From the NCBI GenBank assembly GCA_947485745.1, contig CANKQY010000020.1:1-34393 (forward strand): a stretch of 34,393 nucleotides of DNA. The letters are read 5' to 3'. The notes under the pieces were generated by a model. That model saw only the letters and a program-made list of their open reading frames with translations, was not told the origin of the DNA and searched no databases. Each line of letters starts with the position of its first letter. Position 1 is the first letter of the stretch. A program made the position numbers and the translations under genes. Positions 10,541 through 17,167 of the stretch are shown piece after piece. Source of the stretch: Bacteroidota bacterium. GTDB lineage: Bacteria; Bacteroidota; Bacteroidia; UKL13-3.

Positions 10541-10573
10541 CCTTCTCTGCAAAAAAGTAGGGGAGGTTTTTTT
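10541..10573 (+). terminator. Terminator after ilvE
   Basis: CCTTCTCTGC (10541-10550) pairs with GTAGGGGAGG (10557-10566), with three G-U pairs, an AAAAAA loop and seven Ts after it. The T-run overlaps the stop codon of the convergent glycosyltransferase. Confidence 0.75.
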
Positions 10574-11741
10574 ATGCCCTTTTGGCTCGTTCCCAATTGG
10601 CACTTTGCTTGCCTCTCAAAAACCTAAAAAAACCCAAGTACATGCAGAGATTCATGATAAAAAAGTAATAGGGCACAAATAATATTTTCACCTTAATTTG
10701 TTTGTTGGCCAAGTACCAACCTAGCAGAGCCATTGAATAAAAAAGTAGCTGACCAATCATTAGCAATTTGTATATTATATTTGGTTCAGACAGTAAAAAA
10801 ATATTAACTATAAACAACATTAATAAAGATAGGGGAGCTAATGTCCAACGCAAAACCCTGTGGGAAATAAATAAAAAGCTCACTTTAAAATTGGTGATTA
10901 AGTTAAAACCTTTTGGTAACCTGGTCATACTTTGAAAGGCGCCAGCAGCAATTCTAATTTTCCTTTTGAGCTCCTCTCCCACGTTTGCGCTAGCTGTTTC
11001 TGCGGCCCATGCATTTTTCTCATAAATTACCCTATAGCCATCATTAGCAATTTGCATGCTTTGCATTAAATCATCTAACAAAGTATCTTTAGGTAATTCT
11101 TTAAAAAGTTCAGTTCTATAACTCATTAATTCTCCTGCCGCACCAACAATCGTGTAGAAATCGGAATCAAGTTGTTTTAAGAAACTTTCGTATTTCCAAT
11201 AAATGCCTTCACCAGCACCACTGGCATTTTCTTTGTCCTTGGTAATAATTCTCTTTTCGCCGGTAACTGCGCCCACTCTTGGGTTGGAATAATGCTTTAC
11301 CATTTCATGAATGGCCTCAGGATTTAGGGCGGTATTGGCATCACAAAACACTACAATAGGCGCCTTAACAAAAGCCATGGCACGATTCATGGCAGATGCT
11401 TTACCGTTTCTAGTATCCTCATGCAAAGCTAGTATTTGAGGATATTTTTTGATCCTATCTGGTGTATCATCTGAAGAACCATCGCTAATAAAAATAAGTT
11501 GAAGCTTGTGTGCAGGATAATTTAAAGCAAGACTATTTTTGATTTTTTCTTCAATATAATCTGACTCATTGAAACAAGGAACTACCAGAGCTACACTTGG
11601 CAAAAAGTTTGGATCAAACGGTGCTTTTTTTTGAATAATTTTTTTTATTTTAACCAAAAAATACACTAGGCTACCATAGCCTAAATAACTATAAACTACA
11701 ATACCAATACCTACCCAGAACAAACAGGCTAATACACTCAT
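10572..11741 (-). CDS. Membrane GT2 family glycosyltransferase
   Basis: Processive-type family 2 glycosyltransferase anchored in the inner membrane, probably adding a sugar during exopolysaccharide synthesis. One N-terminal TM segment (about 5-30) precedes the GT-A domain: VALVVPCFNE at 50-59, DGSSDDT at 87-93 (nucleotide-sugar), DAN at 134-136 (metal), a LLDDLMQS acceptor/catalytic segment near 218, and KRKIRIAAG near 250 in place of the Q/RxxRW motif. Two to three C-terminal TM segments follow. 389 aa, ATG at 11741. It is the last gene of the minus-strand polysaccharide operon, 113 nt after the ligase gene. Sugar specificity cannot be read from the sequence. Confidence 0.88.
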   Translation of the reverse strand: MSVLACLFWVGIGIVVYSYLGYGSLVYFLVKIKKIIQKKAPFDPNFLPSVALVVPCFNESDYIEEKIKNSLALNYPAHKLQLIFISDGSSDDTPDRIKKYPQILALHEDTRNGKASAMNRAMAFVKAPIVVFCDANTALNPEAIHEMVKHYSNPRVGAVTGEKRIITKDKENASGAGEGIYWKYESFLKQLDSDFYTIVGAAGELMSYRTELFKELPKDTLLDDLMQSMQIANDGYRVIYEKNAWAAETASANVGEELKRKIRIAAGAFQSMTRLPKGFNLITNFKVSFLFISHRVLRWTLAPLSLLMLFIVNIFLLSEPNIIYKLLMIGQLLFYSMALLGWYLANKQIKVKILFVPYYFFIMNLCMYLGFFRFLRGKQSANWERAKRA

Positions 11742-11854
11742 TTATTGACTATTTTTTTTATAAGTAATCTTACTAAATGAAAGCAGGAATGACTCTGAAT
11801 AGCTGCTTACTTTATAGCTAATAGTAAAGGTACTTATTAAAGGAATTTGTATCA

Positions 11855-13306
11855 TTACTTATTTACTTTTCCTCTGGCATTAAATACTTTAGGCTGGTAA
11901 ATTTCTCCCACCGTTAGCATGGTCATAGTAACATACATTAAAGCACCTATAGGAGCCTGACCAAAAACAGGGGTTCCAAAACTAGCTATTAATACTCCTA
12001 AGAAACCTCCATACAAAGCAATTAGTTTTTGTTTGGTATCTCTATCTGTAATGGTTTTAATTTTTACCACACCCAATACAAGCGCAAAAGCCAATCCTAG
12101 GGCATAAATAATTAAACCTACTATCCCATTTTCCAACCAAATTTTCACAAACCAACTATCAGTTGGTAGATTTGTTAAGTAACTATTTGGATAAAAGCGA
12201 GTGGCCCCTGAGCCGGTAGTACCAATGCCTGAACCAAAAGGCCTGTTTACTAAATATTCGCGAATTTTTTCTTGATTTGCCAAACGAACTAACAGAGGAG
12301 CTTCTTTTGGATCAAGTGCAGTTCTAATCTTATAAATTTGGTGATTTGAATTTCCAATATTGGTAAATTTCAAGAATGAAAAGGCTATCAATAATAACAC
12401 TAAACCACTACCCAATAATCTAAAATTTCTAATCAATAATAGGTAAACAATAAATCCAAAGAAAATTACAAATATTGGTTCAAAACTACCCGAGGTACTC
12501 ATACCAATTAGGCATACAACAAAACCAATGGCATATAAAATTCTTGCCCATTTAGTGTAAGGGCCTAAAGCCAAGATAAGGCATATATAGGCCACGTAAG
12601 CCATGGTAACTCCAAACTGCCCAGCATCAGAAAAAAACGAGAATGCACGCAATTGTCCTAACAATACGTGGGTAATTCTCCCTCCATCCTCGAGCCATTT
12701 ATTTTCAAATGGATCGAGACCAATATTAATTTGTTTCCAACCCCAAAAAGCACCAAATATCCCCCAGATTATAATTGTTTTTATTAGGCCATCCAAGTGT
12801 TCTTTTTTATCAAATAAAAGTAAGGTGAGCAGTACAGTTTGTATTGCATAAAATGAGATACCTCTTACTGCATACAGCCATGCATTGATATTATCCGCTT
12901 CTGGGTTAAATGCCTCGCCAAGTGTATAAAATAGCCATAAAACAATGGTGAAAAAGAATCCATTATTTAGCTTAGCAGAATTTTCTTTGTTCAAGCGAAA
13001 TAACAAGGAAAGTGTAGTTAAAAACAATATCCCATCTACAAACAAATCCAATGGAATGTCACTAACGTACCTGTTAATACCAATAAAGAAAAATGAATAA
13101 TGAATATAGCACATTAAACCATAATAGGGGTTAGAAATAATGAGCGCGATAACACCAAAGAATACAGGTAAAAAGGCTACCAAGCTAACAATACCTATAT
13201 CCCCAACCGCCAATACACTTGCCATTGTAACTCCGGTCGCTAATATCAAAACCGCAATTATAAATGTTGTATTTCTACCACTAAAGGATTTTGAACCTGG
13301 TCTCAA
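11855..13306 (-). CDS. O-antigen ligase/polymerase (Wzy/WaaL-like) membrane protein
   Basis: 483-aa protein with about a dozen hydrophobic segments. The conserved loop of the O-antigen ligase family is seen late in the protein: RPFGSGIGTTGSG followed by LPTDSWFVKIWLENGIVGL. Such proteins polymerise lipid-linked repeat units (Wzy) or ligate them to an acceptor (WaaL) on the periplasmic face. The start is read as TTG at 13306, one base after the stop of the 78-aa gene; an in-frame stop lies five codons upstream and the next ATG would cut off the first membrane helix. The 1-nt spacing suggests translational coupling. Whether it polymerises or ligates is open. Confidence 0.85.
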   Translation of the reverse strand: MRPGSKSFSGRNTTFIIAVLILATGVTMASVLAVGDIGIVSLVAFLPVFFGVIALIISNPYYGLMCYIHYSFFFIGINRYVSDIPLDLFVDGILFLTTLSLLFRLNKENSAKLNNGFFFTIVLWLFYTLGEAFNPEADNINAWLYAVRGISFYAIQTVLLTLLLFDKKEHLDGLIKTIIIWGIFGAFWGWKQINIGLDPFENKWLEDGGRITHVLLGQLRAFSFFSDAGQFGVTMAYVAYICLILALGPYTKWARILYAIGFVVCLIGMSTSGSFEPIFVIFFGFIVYLLLIRNFRLLGSGLVLLLIAFSFLKFTNIGNSNHQIYKIRTALDPKEAPLLVRLANQEKIREYLVNRPFGSGIGTTGSGATRFYPNSYLTNLPTDSWFVKIWLENGIVGLIIYALGLAFALVLGVVKIKTITDRDTKQKLIALYGGFLGVLIASFGTPVFGQAPIGALMYVTMTMLTVGEIYQPKVFNARGKVNK

Positions 13307-13307
13307 T

Positions 13308-13544
13308 TTAGTTATTGTTTATAATTTGTATACTCGGTTGATGTATATAAAAATCAATGGAGTGAAGATTACCAATTCTTAGCGTTTCAAAAACACCATA
13401 AATAGCAAGTAAAATTAGGTAAGGGCAGGAAAAATCATCGGATAGAAAGCTGGCTAAAATTACAACTCCAAGTATAGCACCTAAACCATTCTCAATAAGA
13501 GAAGTAAAGCTTTTACTTTTTATTATTTGTGTGACGGCCAACAT
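13308..13544 (-). CDS. 78-aa small membrane protein of the polysaccharide operon
   Basis: Not recognised. It encodes 78 residues with two hydrophobic stretches (GLGAILGVVILASFL at about 21-35 and CPYLILLAIYGVF at about 40-52) and a polar C-terminal tail. It starts with ATG at 13544, 14 nt after the stop of the Wzc-like gene, and ends 1 nt before the TTG start of the ligase, so it fills the only gap between them and is very likely real. The helix-turn-helix membrane hairpin resembles small two-TM families such as DUF2892 only in size. A partner or chaperone role for the ligase or co-polymerase is inference from position. Confidence 0.72.
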   Translation of the reverse strand: MLAVTQIIKSKSFTSLIENGLGAILGVVILASFLSDDFSCPYLILLAIYGVFETLRIGNLHSIDFYIHQPSIQIINNN

Positions 13545-13558
13545 GCATTTCCTACAAA

Positions 13559-15766
13559 TTATGCGTTTTCTTCTTCAGAATCATCATCCTGTTGCGGCAG
13601 GGCAGGGCGTGCAACACGCTTTGATTTAGGAACTGTAACAACCATGTTTTCTAAGTCTAAAGATTCAACAAAGTTCAACCAAAGCATAATTTTATTTTCA
13701 TCGCCCGAGGCTTTCCTAAACAATTTCATGATATTATCATCGGCAGGCTGCCAGCTTCTTCTTGCATCTAAAACCAATAATGATAAACGAGAGTTCTTAA
13801 TCAATTGATTTGGCAATGCATTTATGCTGATAGCAGGGATTTCCACGATGATAAAATTATAAGCACTTCTATTTACTCTAGAAAACTCAGGTAATAAATT
13901 CTCCTCAGTTTTAGCAGAAAACAGCCTAGAAGTAATGTCGTAACGAAGGGTACGAAATCTTCTATCATCCGTTTCAGCATCCTCCATATTTTCGTCGTTA
14001 GAAATATAAAGTACTGAATAATCAAGGGTATATAATTTCTCGGCAAGTTTTTGACCAGCATACGATTTGCCCTCCTGTTCTCTAGAACTAATAACAGTAA
14101 TGAGGTAATTTGAGGTAACTTGAGGATTATTTTCCAATTCAATTTTTAAATTAGAAACAGCATAATCCAAGAGCGTATTTTCTATCCTACCTATATGAAT
14201 TGAATTGGAGGACGACATTCTATTAGGCAAGGCACTGAAAGTTTTTAGACCAGTTAACTCCTCAGCTCTTGATGTATTTTTGATTGACCCATCCAACAAT
14301 TCGCGGGCAATGAAGTAAACAAGCAGGAATAAGAAAGACGCAAGGAATGACAATACCACCAATAAAAACCTCTTTGGAGCTATCGGTTTTGTTGGGAAAA
14401 CAGGATTATCCGTTACCTGCAAATTGTTCGACATTTCGATATTTTGTTGTCTCAATTTAGCCAAATGGTAGCCATGTAAAACTTCTAAATATTGCCTTTC
14501 GGCAACATTAATCTCGCGCTCTAACATGCTTACTTGCATATTTAAAGGAGAGTATTCTCTGTACTTTCTATCAAATTCTTTTCTACGATCAATGTACACT
14601 TGCAGGCGTGCTTCTGAGCCATCCATTGCCAAAACTTCTTTTAACCAAGCCTCCAACACCGTATTCATTGGAACCGATTCCATGGTATTATTTAAACTGT
14701 AATATTGTAATACCCAGAGGCGAATTTCTTGCTTTATGGCATCCACTCTGGTGGCCATTTTCTCTATATCAACCTTTTCATTGTGGTAGATTTTTGCTCT
14801 TTCATATTCTTCGTGCGCAACCCCCAATTCCTTCCTCAATTTATTAAGTTCTGCATTGTTATGTAATAAAACCTCTCTTGATTCCAACTGGTCTTCTAAC
14901 CTTGCTACTCCGCGTTTGTGAGCTTCATAAGCCATTAACTCTTTGTAATAATCTGTTTCATTGGTTTCATTTTCAATTGCAACGGCTTTCGCTTGCTCAT
15001 AATAATTGATAATTTTATTTCGAATACCAAAGTCTTTTAACTTATTTTCAGAGTTATTTAATTCGGCAGCCGCATCTTTTAACCTTGCCTCAAACCATTT
15101 TGCTACATTTACAGTTTCTGAACCTTTTAAAAATTTATATTTTTCAATAAACTCTTCAGTTAAAAACTTTAAGGTATTTAAACACACACCAGGATCATCT
15201 GATTTATAAGTGATATCAATAAAATCTGAGGAAGATTTACGCGAAGCAGTTAAGTTTTTACTTATATTACCAATGCTATAATGACCATTAACATCTGAAA
15301 TTAAACGAACTACTTTATTATCAGTAGAAGAATTTTTATATTTAGTTATTTTATCAACGGTAGCAGAAAAATTACCTTGAACAACTATTAAAGCTCTTTC
15401 ATCTGTAATTGTATTTTTGAGCTCATTAAAACTCTTTTCACTAAGAATAAGCGGATCTGGCATTTCAAGTAACAGATGCTGCGCCAATACCTTAATGGCA
15501 ACATCTTCTAAAGTTTGACGAGCTGTAACGGTTACTAATAAGTTGTCAAAGGCATTGTTGATAGTAAAATAATCCGACTTAGGGGCATCTTCACTTGCGT
15601 TATTACCGTTTCCTGAAGCGATGCCTGTATAAACAGTTGTTGCAGATTGGTATTCTTTAGGCAATCTATCTGATAGCACATAAACCAGAATGGCCACTAG
15701 CACTGGGAAAAGTATTAGCCATTTAAGGTTTTTACTTAATATTCGTAAAAATTGAACAAAACTCAT
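13559..15766 (-). CDS. Wzc-like polysaccharide co-polymerase with degenerate kinase domain
   Basis: Inner-membrane protein that sets chain length and couples synthesis to export of polysaccharide. The 735 aa comprise a Wzz domain with TM1 (about 15-32), a long periplasmic coiled-coil/GNVR region, the PxxPxxP-type motif PTKPIAP at 458-464, TM2 (about 466-487), and a cytoplasmic ATPase-like domain. That domain keeps GKS at 566-568 (REQEGKS). The Walker A' segment reads LYISND instead of an IDxD pattern, Walker B reads IIVEIP with Glu642 in place of the usual Asp, and the C-terminal tail is acidic without any tyrosine cluster. Active tyrosine-kinase function is therefore doubtful. It lies 10 nt downstream of the TolC-like gene. 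Confidence 0.9.
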   Translation of the reverse strand: MSFVQFLRILSKNLKWLILFPVLVAILVYVLSDRLPKEYQSATTVYTGIASGNGNNASEDAPKSDYFTINNAFDNLLVTVTARQTLEDVAIKVLAQHLLLEMPDPLILSEKSFNELKNTITDERALIVVQGNFSATVDKITKYKNSSTDNKVVRLISDVNGHYSIGNISKNLTASRKSSSDFIDITYKSDDPGVCLNTLKFLTEEFIEKYKFLKGSETVNVAKWFEARLKDAAAELNNSENKLKDFGIRNKIINYYEQAKAVAIENETNETDYYKELMAYEAHKRGVARLEDQLESREVLLHNNAELNKLRKELGVAHEEYERAKIYHNEKVDIEKMATRVDAIKQEIRLWVLQYYSLNNTMESVPMNTVLEAWLKEVLAMDGSEARLQVYIDRRKEFDRKYREYSPLNMQVSMLEREINVAERQYLEVLHGYHLAKLRQQNIEMSNNLQVTDNPVFPTKPIAPKRFLLVVLSFLASFLFLLVYFIARELLDGSIKNTSRAEELTGLKTFSALPNRMSSSNSIHIGRIENTLLDYAVSNLKIELENNPQVTSNYLITVISSREQEGKSYAGQKLAEKLYTLDYSVLYISNDENMEDAETDDRRFRTLRYDITSRLFSAKTEENLLPEFSRVNRSAYNFIIVEIPAISINALPNQLIKNSRLSLLVLDARRSWQPADDNIMKLFRKASGDENKIMLWLNFVESLDLENMVVTVPKSKRVARPALPQQDDDSEEENA

Positions 15767-15776
15767 CTGCGTTGAT

Positions 15777-16544
15777 TTATTTTTTTGTTTGTTTTAATAT
15801 GACCTTGTGTAACGGCAAACCTAGTATAGCCTCAAACTGTTTCAATGCGCCATAATAAAACCTGAATGATTCGTGGTATGCAGCTTCGGCATTTGCTAGC
15901 ACATTCTTTTGTCTAGCATACTCCGAAAAGTGAATGGAACCTTCTCTGTATTCCTTTTCTGCAACCTGACAAGCCACCATTTGCATAGTATAATCTTCAT
16001 TTCTTCCTTTATACAATCTATTATATCCAACCATATCTGCATAAAAAGAATTTAACTTTATTCTTAGTTCCATTGCCTCCGCATCGCGCTTATACTTTTG
16101 CACGATTACTTTTTCTTTAGATTCGTTTACTCTGCCTTTATTCCCTAAAACATCATAAACTGAAAGTTGAATATTAACACCTGCACGGAAACCAGATTGT
16201 ACCTGAACCAAACCGGTTTGAGGTGCTAATGGATCTGTGTAAGCAAAAAATGGAAGACTACCGAATGAGTAATTATAAAAAACATTAACATTTTGAGCCC
16301 AAATCCACCTCGTATAACGTTCATTCCATTGATTGGCCCGCATTGCGGCAGCTTCTTGTTTTAAGGTAGGGTTTATTGATTTAGCAATTTCATACAAAGA
16401 ATCTAAGGAAGGCAATAGTAATTCAATGTCTATTTTTGGATTCAATAATAATTCTTCAGTTGGATCACCTGCTTGTGCATTGGCAGGAAGGGTAATGCAA
16501 ATTATCCCTATCAATAAAACAATCCAAGTTATATATTTCTTCAT
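15777..16544 (-). CDS. Half-length TolC-family outer-membrane protein
   Basis: 255-aa exported protein with a clear signal peptide (MKKYITWIVLLIGIICI, cleavage after ANAQA) and a TolC/OEP-like body: LYEIAKSINPTLKQEAA is the typical first helix, then a barrel-strand-like region, long helices, and AEAAYHESFRFYYGALKQFE before the end. Classical TolC subunits have two such repeats in more than 400 aa; only one is present here and the C-terminus is intact. The ATG at 16544 places the signal peptide at the N-terminus; an alternative start 14 codons upstream would bury it. It is the first gene of the polysaccharide operon, where a Wza-type channel would be expected, so it may form the outer-membrane exit. 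That role is inferred. Confidence 0.83.
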   Translation of the reverse strand: MKKYITWIVLLIGIICITLPANAQAGDPTEELLLNPKIDIELLLPSLDSLYEIAKSINPTLKQEAAAMRANQWNERYTRWIWAQNVNVFYNYSFGSLPFFAYTDPLAPQTGLVQVQSGFRAGVNIQLSVYDVLGNKGRVNESKEKVIVQKYKRDAEAMELRIKLNSFYADMVGYNRLYKGRNEDYTMQMVACQVAEKEYREGSIHFSEYARQKNVLANAEAAYHESFRFYYGALKQFEAILGLPLHKVILKQTKK

Positions 16545-16712: not shown

Positions 16713-17167
16713 ATGAATGACAGAGATATCATTGTAATTGGATTGCAGCCTTATGATAATGCCATTGGAAGTAAACGAATAAATATTGCCGATGAATTTG
16801 CTCTTAACAATGTAGTTCCCTATATTAATTATGCTTTCGATGGCACATCAATTAGGAGAGAAAAGAATTTACTGAATATCAAAAAACGGATAGAAATGAG
16901 GTCAGAAAAAAAGGGAAATCTGAATGAAATTAATGCTAATTTATGGGTATTCTATGAAGATACCTTGCTAGAATCTGTCAATTGGGGTCATCATACCTTT
17001 TTGTTTAAAATTTTCAACTTTATCAACAATGCTAGGATTAAGAATGAGATTAAAAAATTCATTAACCGGTTGAAATTTAATGATTTTATCATTTCAACGA
17101 CAACGATAAGTTTATGCGTTTTCACCTTAATGAATTAATAAAAACAAGTTTTTCTATGCTGAAGTGA
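16713..17167 (+). pseudogene. Frameshifted glycosyltransferase remnant (TuaH/GT1-like N-terminus)
   Basis: The open frame 16713-17138 encodes 141 aa. The first part matches the N-terminus of TuaH-like glycosyltransferases from memory: DIIVIGLQPYDNAIGSKR, NVVPYINYAFD, NLWVFYEDTLLESVNW, and a KFINRLKFNDFII helix. The next family element, a conserved ND-x-D segment, appears out of frame: from 17096 the +1 frame reads NDNDKFMRFHLNELIKTSF and stops at 17165. Adding one T to the run at 17092-17094 would join the two. A second slip at the T-run near 17151-17155 would be needed to continue. The C-terminal catalytic half is absent. It diverges from the polysaccharide operon, so it is probably a lost transferase of that locus. 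The remaining 17168-17288 shows no recognisable gene. Confidence 0.7.

Follow-up and report, generated by a model that had tools for sequence, protein, structure and literature searches.

Genes of the operon and their products

The stretch of DNA analysed here (the window) comprises 34,393 nucleotides of a Bacteroidota genome (contig CANKQY010000020.1 of assembly GCA_947485745.1) and holds, on its minus strand between positions 10572 and 16544, a polysaccharide operon that begins with a half-length protein of the TolC family, hereafter TolC½. In the direction of transcription, the operon encodes TolC½ (15777..16544; 255 aa, with a signal-peptide-like start), a Wzc/PslE-like polysaccharide co-polymerase with a degenerate kinase domain (13559..15766; 735 aa), an open reading frame (ORF) of 78 aa (13308..13544), a Wzy-type polymerase/ligase with a TTG start (11855..13306; 483 aa) and a family 2 glycosyltransferase (GT2; 10572..11741; 389 aa). 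An earlier note, made from the sequence alone, had described these five genes as a compact export operon, and all five lie where that note placed them. Its statement that the unit lacks OPX, flippase and phosphatase genes also holds, as regards intact genes, in Pfam searches of the five proteins, with no match to Poly_export; OPX, according to the available part of PMC9601211, is the component that serves Wzx/Wzy- and ABC-dependent export at the outer membrane.

TolC½ matches the Pfam domain OEP (PF02321) at 2.7e-14 in a single stretch that covers the complete profile (1-187/187). AlphaFold2, run on 61 sequences, returned a model with a predicted local distance difference test (pLDDT) score of 90.7, with strands at residues 87-102 and 113-126, in both of which polar and apolar residues largely alternate, and helices at 129-200 and 206-241. 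In Foldseek searches with this model, outer-membrane channels of the OprM/TolC type came out on top (best E 1.3e-6), and a profile of TolC½ homologues matched E. coli TolC in the Protein Data Bank (PDB) in two stretches; in VIA-align, TolC channels were intermixed with unrelated helical proteins and little information was gained. The OEP domain, the two strands and the long helices of outer-membrane factors are thus present, but not the two tandem OEP repeats per chain that characterize TolC, there being one repeat in the 255 aa. In agreement with the earlier assignment to a half-length TolC family, TolC½ is confidently predicted to be a TolC-type half-subunit.

The Wzc-like protein contains the Wzz/GNVR region and the ATPase-like domain of the PCP-2a/Wzc family; in Pfam, GNVR is above (1.6e-7) and Wzz below the cut-off, and among 43 homologues GNVR was matched in 27 and Wzz in 9. 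Its profile found PslE as the best PDB match (1.8e-19), and the model (pLDDT 81.6, predicted template modelling score 0.45) had Wza-Wzc and Wzc entries as its best Foldseek matches. The Walker A Lys is retained in 41 of the 43 homologues, but the Walker B position is Glu in 39 and Asp in one, and all 43 have 0-2 Tyr in their last 25 residues, so that the full set of features of a catalytic tyrosine autokinase (Walker A, A' and B, plus a Tyr-rich tail) is not found in the Wzc-like protein. The window protein itself retains Walker A, has Glu for the Walker B Asp and does not end in a Tyr-rich tail. In contrast, 16 of the last 70 residues are Tyr in the canonical 812-aa Wzc of the window genome. 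With a degenerate kinase and no Tyr tail, it is consistent that none of the five genes encodes a phosphatase.

A conserved N-x-[IV]-x-N-[LY]-x-E-[QH]-like segment was observed around residues ~250-258 of the Wzc-like protein (window 14993-15019, minus strand), at a helix break in the predicted periplasmic region. It occurs in most loci with an adjacent TolC½, and was not seen in loci L208 and L052 (see below) or in canonical Wzc. The segment was considered as a TolC½-docking motif, but we make no such claim, because its position in the hairpin was not visible and because it had itself served as search pattern.

The fuller locus in relatives and the state of the window copy

We compared the operon with a set of 60 related genomes, that of the window (G000) included, of which 27 were matched by the Wzc-like query. 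A Wzx gene (~430-446 aa) lies between Wzc and Wzy in 16 of the 18 family members examined, the exceptions being G004 and G023, and the Wzx of one intact relative was confirmed by a match to PF01943 (8e-19). The 78-aa ORF, which has no Pfam match above cut-off and had been taken for a separate membrane protein, matches the intact Wzx of relatives in 12 of 12 cases by local blastp (E 2e-19 to 2e-10); residues 1-58 align to Wzx residues 1-61 with up to 66% identity, after which the frame enters unrelated sequence and stops. It is instead the N-terminal stub of a Wzx flippase, with 58 residues of ~442 recognisable. All stub E values were computed in a small local database.

The operon of G013 has the order TolC½-Wzc-Wzx-Wzy-GT2(304)-GT2(397)-GT2-like(395)-GT4(375)-methyltransferase(256)-GT2(389), with HexAT-GT4 as the divergent part of the locus; GT2(304) and GT2(397) are variable, as are the methyltransferase and the divergent GT4, all being missing from some genomes. 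The window retains TolC½, Wzc, Wzy and GT2(389), the last gene of the fuller locus (Glycos_transf_2, 2.2e-23; best NCBIfam match PgaC_IcaA at 118 bits, far below that model's cut-off). Besides that of Wzx, it holds two further stubs. A 37-aa ORF between Wzy and GT2 (11742..11855, minus strand) preserves the N-terminus of the 304-aa GT2 as a stub (local E 4e-6), with similar sequence at the same junction in G011 and G004. A divergent 141-aa ORF (16713..17138, plus strand) corresponds to the N-terminal part of the 397-aa divergent GT4 in the fuller locus, with 63% identity over 127 aligned aa (local E 2e-51).

The reading of a compact operon was therefore rejected, because relatives hold Wzx and three to five further operon genes and the window holds stubs of Wzx, GT2 and GT4. 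Together with an altered Wzy motif, the stubs indicate that the five-gene unit is the remainder of a longer locus; judged from these alignments, the full Wzx/Wzy locus has roughly ten genes and has decayed in the window. Where intact relatives have the motif SGSRGP, the window has SGSFEP, with loss of the conserved Arg, and G004 has AGSWGP. The Wzy_C match, 1.9e-12 in G013, is 3.8e-6 and below the curated cut-off in the window, where the frame is nonetheless intact. Among 235 Wzy positions invariant in six intact relatives, 24 are changed in the window and 37 in G004. When each intact relative was left out in turn, the five ingroup members showed 1 to 16 changes in 236-251 positions, and the outgroup, G024, 34 in 269. 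The corresponding figures for the window are 6/98 for TolC½, 30/457 for Wzc and 6/244 for GT2(389), all three with intact frames; among eight Wzc proteins compared, that of the window resembles the outgroup least (70% versus 71-75%).

The nearest relative found, G011 (93% identity in GT2), shares the Wzy-stub-GT2 junction; its contig ends in Wzy, and the genome, which is 81% complete, yielded neither Wzc nor TolC½. For the pair G000 and G011, the ratio of nonsynonymous to synonymous substitution rates (dN/dS) of Wzy was raised to 0.30 (269 codons available), as compared with 0.066-0.131 for six other neighbouring genes, including GT2(389) with 0.095. The lineage of the window has deleted Wzx and most glycosyltransferases and stripped Wzy of its conserved Arg, for which reasons the window copy has probably stopped making and exporting the original polymer. 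It also illustrates how such loci are lost in small genomes.

G004 likewise holds stubs of its own, from Wzx and GT2(304). In a tree of Wzc and GT2, G004 groups with the intact G014/G006 (support 100) and G023 with the intact G034/G022 (100), and G000 is placed elsewhere, with G003/G010/G012 (67). Because the three group apart, two of them beside intact relatives, Wzx has, on this tree, been lost independently at least three times.

Two variants were also observed in the family. In G014, Wzy is split into two overlapping ORFs (L038:2221-3676), probably by a frameshift, and the rest of the locus is intact. Larger genomes carry a paralogous second TolC½-Wzc-Wzy operon, with a Wzc ~40% identical (L049-L051, L111-L121); no second Wzc match was found in the window genome.

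TolC½-Wzc linkage across Bacteroidota

Used in a wider scan, the Wzc alignment retrieved 99 loci, and the best 80 of these, some with cut flanks, entered the analysis; the record titles are of Bacteroidota, including Mucilaginibacter, Flectobacillus, Rhodocytophaga, Plebeiobacterium, Saprospiraceae and Bacteroidales. In 79 of these best 80 loci, TolC½ is the gene directly 5' of Wzc, and the contig of the 80th (L157) starts within Wzc. Its length is 219-320 aa in 77 of the 79, and in 73 a distance of -4 to +39 bp separates it from Wzc; the two proteins outside this length range (L130 and L139) have one OEP repeat behind an acyltransferase. OEP was matched by all 61 proteins in the TolC½ homologue alignment (A3). 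In a phylum sample of 296 genomes, 28, the window's own included, have this Wzc at E <= 1e-40, and TolC½ adjoins Wzc in 19 of the 20 loci fetched from the sample (one being L213).

A three-sequence OPX model that passed leave-one-out detected no OPX among the ORFs of 80 aa or more in any of the 100 loci (the best 80 plus the 20 of the phylum sample). Of the 80 wider loci, 49 have a detected Wzx and 71 a detected Wzy, numbers that are in part due to the cut flanks. A phosphoglycosyltransferase (PGT)-like gene is present in 38 of the 80 and in 12 of the 20 phylum-sample loci; four of the PGT-like genes were checked and match PF02397 (E about 1e-57 to 1e-61). Of the non-canonical export route suggested earlier, what stands is a half-length TolC constantly beside Wzc in loci without OPX. 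A route lacking a flippase by design does not, since relatives have intact Wzx and Wzy, PGT-like genes are frequent and the window itself has a flippase stub.

The specificity of this association was evaluated with a TolC½ profile over the 296 genomes, with matches listed down to about 3e-15. Among the matches listed were 26 frames of <=330 aa, and all 25 that could be assessed, the window's included, are in a locus with Wzc, Wzx or Wzy, as determined from coordinates or fetched context. A short match in G310, whose gene is truncated by the contig end beside efflux genes, was left out of the half-length count. The other frames among the matches listed have >=436 aa, except one in G287 (406 aa, high GC), which holds a TolC½ beside Wzc.

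The fusions of L130 (3993-5852) and L139 (4070-5992) come from two different genomes and consist of an acyltransferase-3 (PF01757), a signal-peptide-like segment and a half-TolC (OEP) in a single frame, each immediately 5' of Wzc.

OPX elsewhere, the candidate export route and its alternatives

OPX genes exist outside the locus. Poly_export was found in 59 of the 60 relatives and in 264 of the 296 phylum-sample genomes, and the window genome has two such genes. The first is short and lies beside a Wzt-type ABC transporter and the Tyr-tailed 812-aa Wzc (L034:4522-6960, C81), which ends in a long C-terminal (GY)n tail. The second (826 aa) lies beside a 354-aa protein of a Wzz-like family, which has a Pfam Wzz match of only 0.011 and no PDB match; its relatives match Wzz in 4 of 4 cases (best 2.5e-5), and its profile aligns to the C-terminal region of Wzc (E 7e-7). 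Members of the 354-aa family also adjoin the sole OPX of G014, the sole OPX of G010 and one OPX of G023, and Wzc/Wzz proteins are the neighbours of the only OPX in G294 and of the second one in G023. All seven OPX genes inspected in these five genomes therefore adjoin a co-polymerase of their own.

Conversely, Poly_export was not detected in seven of the 42 genomes taken from loci L122-L164 (G357, G368, G376, G379, G386, G387 and G391), which are drafts; TolC½ itself is on the contig in six of them, and in G386 the contig is cut before TolC½. Using two tRNA-synthetase families as a completeness proxy, in which matches may be pieces of a single gene, these seven gave 3-7 and 2-5 matches, as compared with 5-6 and 4-5 in four one- or two-contig genomes. 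G357 (5+4 matches) and G379 (6+5) carry TolC½-Wzc-Wzx-Wzy loci (L127 and L150), and G386 also scores well. Resting on drafts, the OPX-less genomes favour an OPX-independent export. The earlier note had named a Wza gene elsewhere, consistently co-occurring with the operon, as the observation that would speak against its proposal. To the letter this is what we found, with two OPX genes in the window genome and OPX in 28 of 28 Wzc-positive phylum-sample genomes, but the co-occurrence does not discriminate, because OPX is near-ubiquitous, the inspected OPX genes have their own co-polymerases and no OPX was detected in seven of the 42 genomes that carry the locus.

The most likely reading, which we consider moderately probable, is that TolC½ serves a Wzx/Wzy pathway as its outer-membrane exit, in an exopolysaccharide locus that is widespread in Bacteroidota and of which the window holds a decayed copy. 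Where the locus is intact, a PGT encoded inside or outside it would start a lipid-linked unit, which glycosyltransferases would extend, Wzx flip and Wzy polymerise, and the Wzc/PslE-like co-polymerase, with its degenerate kinase domain, would control the process and extend into the periplasm. TolC½, which occupies the gene position beside Wzc that belongs to OPX/Wza elsewhere, would oligomerise from single-repeat subunits into an alpha/beta barrel like that of TolC. This barrel would dock on the co-polymerase and let the polymer out. Since a one-repeat chain is not tied to the TolC trimer of two-repeat chains, the ring could follow the symmetry of the co-polymerase, which we offer as a conjecture. 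The available part of PMC12881504 describes Wza-Wzc as an octameric complex of both proteins. A more specific model, which we regard as possible but doubtful, is an OPX-free Bacteroidota exporter whose pore is a homo-oligomer of half-TolC, possibly an octamer that, not bound to the 3x2 symmetry of TolC, matches a C8 co-polymerase; its TolC-type barrel would then have 16 strands and sufficient width for polysaccharide, and the degenerate kinase would replace phosphorylation-driven cycling.

Several observations weigh against TolC½ as the exit. OPX in trans is conceivable for the window genome and the 28 Wzc-positive genomes, all of which encode it elsewhere, and the genomes apparently free of OPX are drafts whose completeness is not stated. 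One Wzc-like locus (L208) has no adjacent TolC½, in one subtype TolC½ follows Wzy at the far end of the operon (L052, L217-L221), and in G140 it is ~13 kb from Wzc in the same cluster. The incomplete detection of Wzx and Wzy in the wider loci points the same way, as does the presence of a PGT-like gene in just four of the 38 loci whose operon belongs to either of the window's own two types. TolC½ might then be an accessory protein, with the polymer leaving through an OPX encoded elsewhere that borrows this Wzc. The near-ubiquity of OPX speaks for such an arrangement, which we nevertheless consider rather unlikely, as every inspected OPX gene has a co-polymerase beside it and TolC½ is present on contigs of six genomes in which OPX was not detected. 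Alternatively, TolC½ might be a half-subunit acting alongside full-length TolC, or a periplasmic adaptor for another outer-membrane channel. Full-length TolC-family genes do occur in some of the same genomes, G000 included, but TolC½ begins with a signal-peptide-like segment of its own, polar and apolar residues alternate along its two strands, and the assessed half-length relatives among the matches listed are all in polysaccharide loci; we hold this to be the least probable of the alternatives.

A further alternative concerns the lineage of the window, in which TolC½-Wzc-(Wzy)-GT2 might have been re-purposed as a minimal system with GT2 supplying the polymer. Three independent reductions (G000, G004 and G023) retained TolC½, Wzc and the same GT2, the frames of TolC½ and Wzc are intact and GT2 is strongly constrained, as its low dN/dS indicates. 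Yet GT2(389) has matches at E <= 1e-60 in 37 of the 60 genomes (own included), some without a Wzc match, so its retention has a reason of its own, which weakens its candidacy as the dedicated synthase of a reduced system; by eye, it also lacks the QxxRW motif. In addition, Wzy and, to a lesser degree, Wzc have drifted in G000, and G011 yields neither TolC½ nor Wzc. Re-purposing appears improbable, only slightly less so than a mixed or adaptor role of TolC½.

Several known systems resemble the proposed one in part. With the outer-membrane factors of TolC/OprM efflux and type I secretion, TolC½ shares the OEP repeat, two strands and long helices, but it has one repeat per chain instead of two, and its conserved neighbour is Wzc. 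A single-repeat TolC is the presumed state before the internal duplication of TolC. In the Psl system of Pseudomonas, to which the top PDB match of the co-polymerase sequence (PslE) belongs, PslD is the OPX partner of PslE; Psl thus relies on OPX, whereas a half-TolC is found here. The Wza-Wzc system of E. coli (capsule/colanic acid) likewise has Wzx, Wzy and a PCP-2a-type co-polymerase with an adjoining outer-membrane gene, but here the locus has a half-length TolC in place of OPX/Wza, and the kinase domain is degenerate and without a Tyr tail. The Myxococcus-type composite OPX/beta-barrel translocon also departs from Wza, with a beta-barrel in the outer-membrane passage; as far as the available parts of PMC9601211 and PMC9603273 describe it, a short OPX is kept there, unlike in the present loci with their TolC-family partner. 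The word TolC is absent from the main texts of both papers, according to a term search of the text available. The EcpK/HfsB-type tyrosine pseudokinases that act with PCP-2 proteins, as presented in the accessible portion of PMC12004946, offer another case of a co-polymerase probably independent of Tyr phosphorylation, but in the present family the degenerate domain forms one chain with the co-polymerase and retains Walker A.

Searches of the open-access literature (subscription papers and preprints being outside this scope) brought up nothing on a half-length TolC in polysaccharide export, and the mentions of TolC met in further papers concern secretion, efflux or references. The half-TolC and Wzc-like export system, widespread in Bacteroidota, is thus apparently undescribed. 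If the proposed route is correct, large polysaccharides would have a further way through the outer membrane, with half-TolC replacing OPX phylum-wide, efflux and type I channels would be linked to capsule export, and single-repeat TolC proteins would still be in use today. Surveys based on OPX would overlook these loci.

Receiver-like genes were also observed in 32 of the 80 wider loci, and the two that were checked match PF00072. In L122 (3637-5187), L136 (3258-4855) and similar loci, a response-regulator receiver gene lies beside the PGT near TolC½, and the N-terminal region of such a PGT is itself receiver-like (weak Response_reg match in L135). This pairing of receiver and PGT possibly reflects a direct control of polymer initiation.

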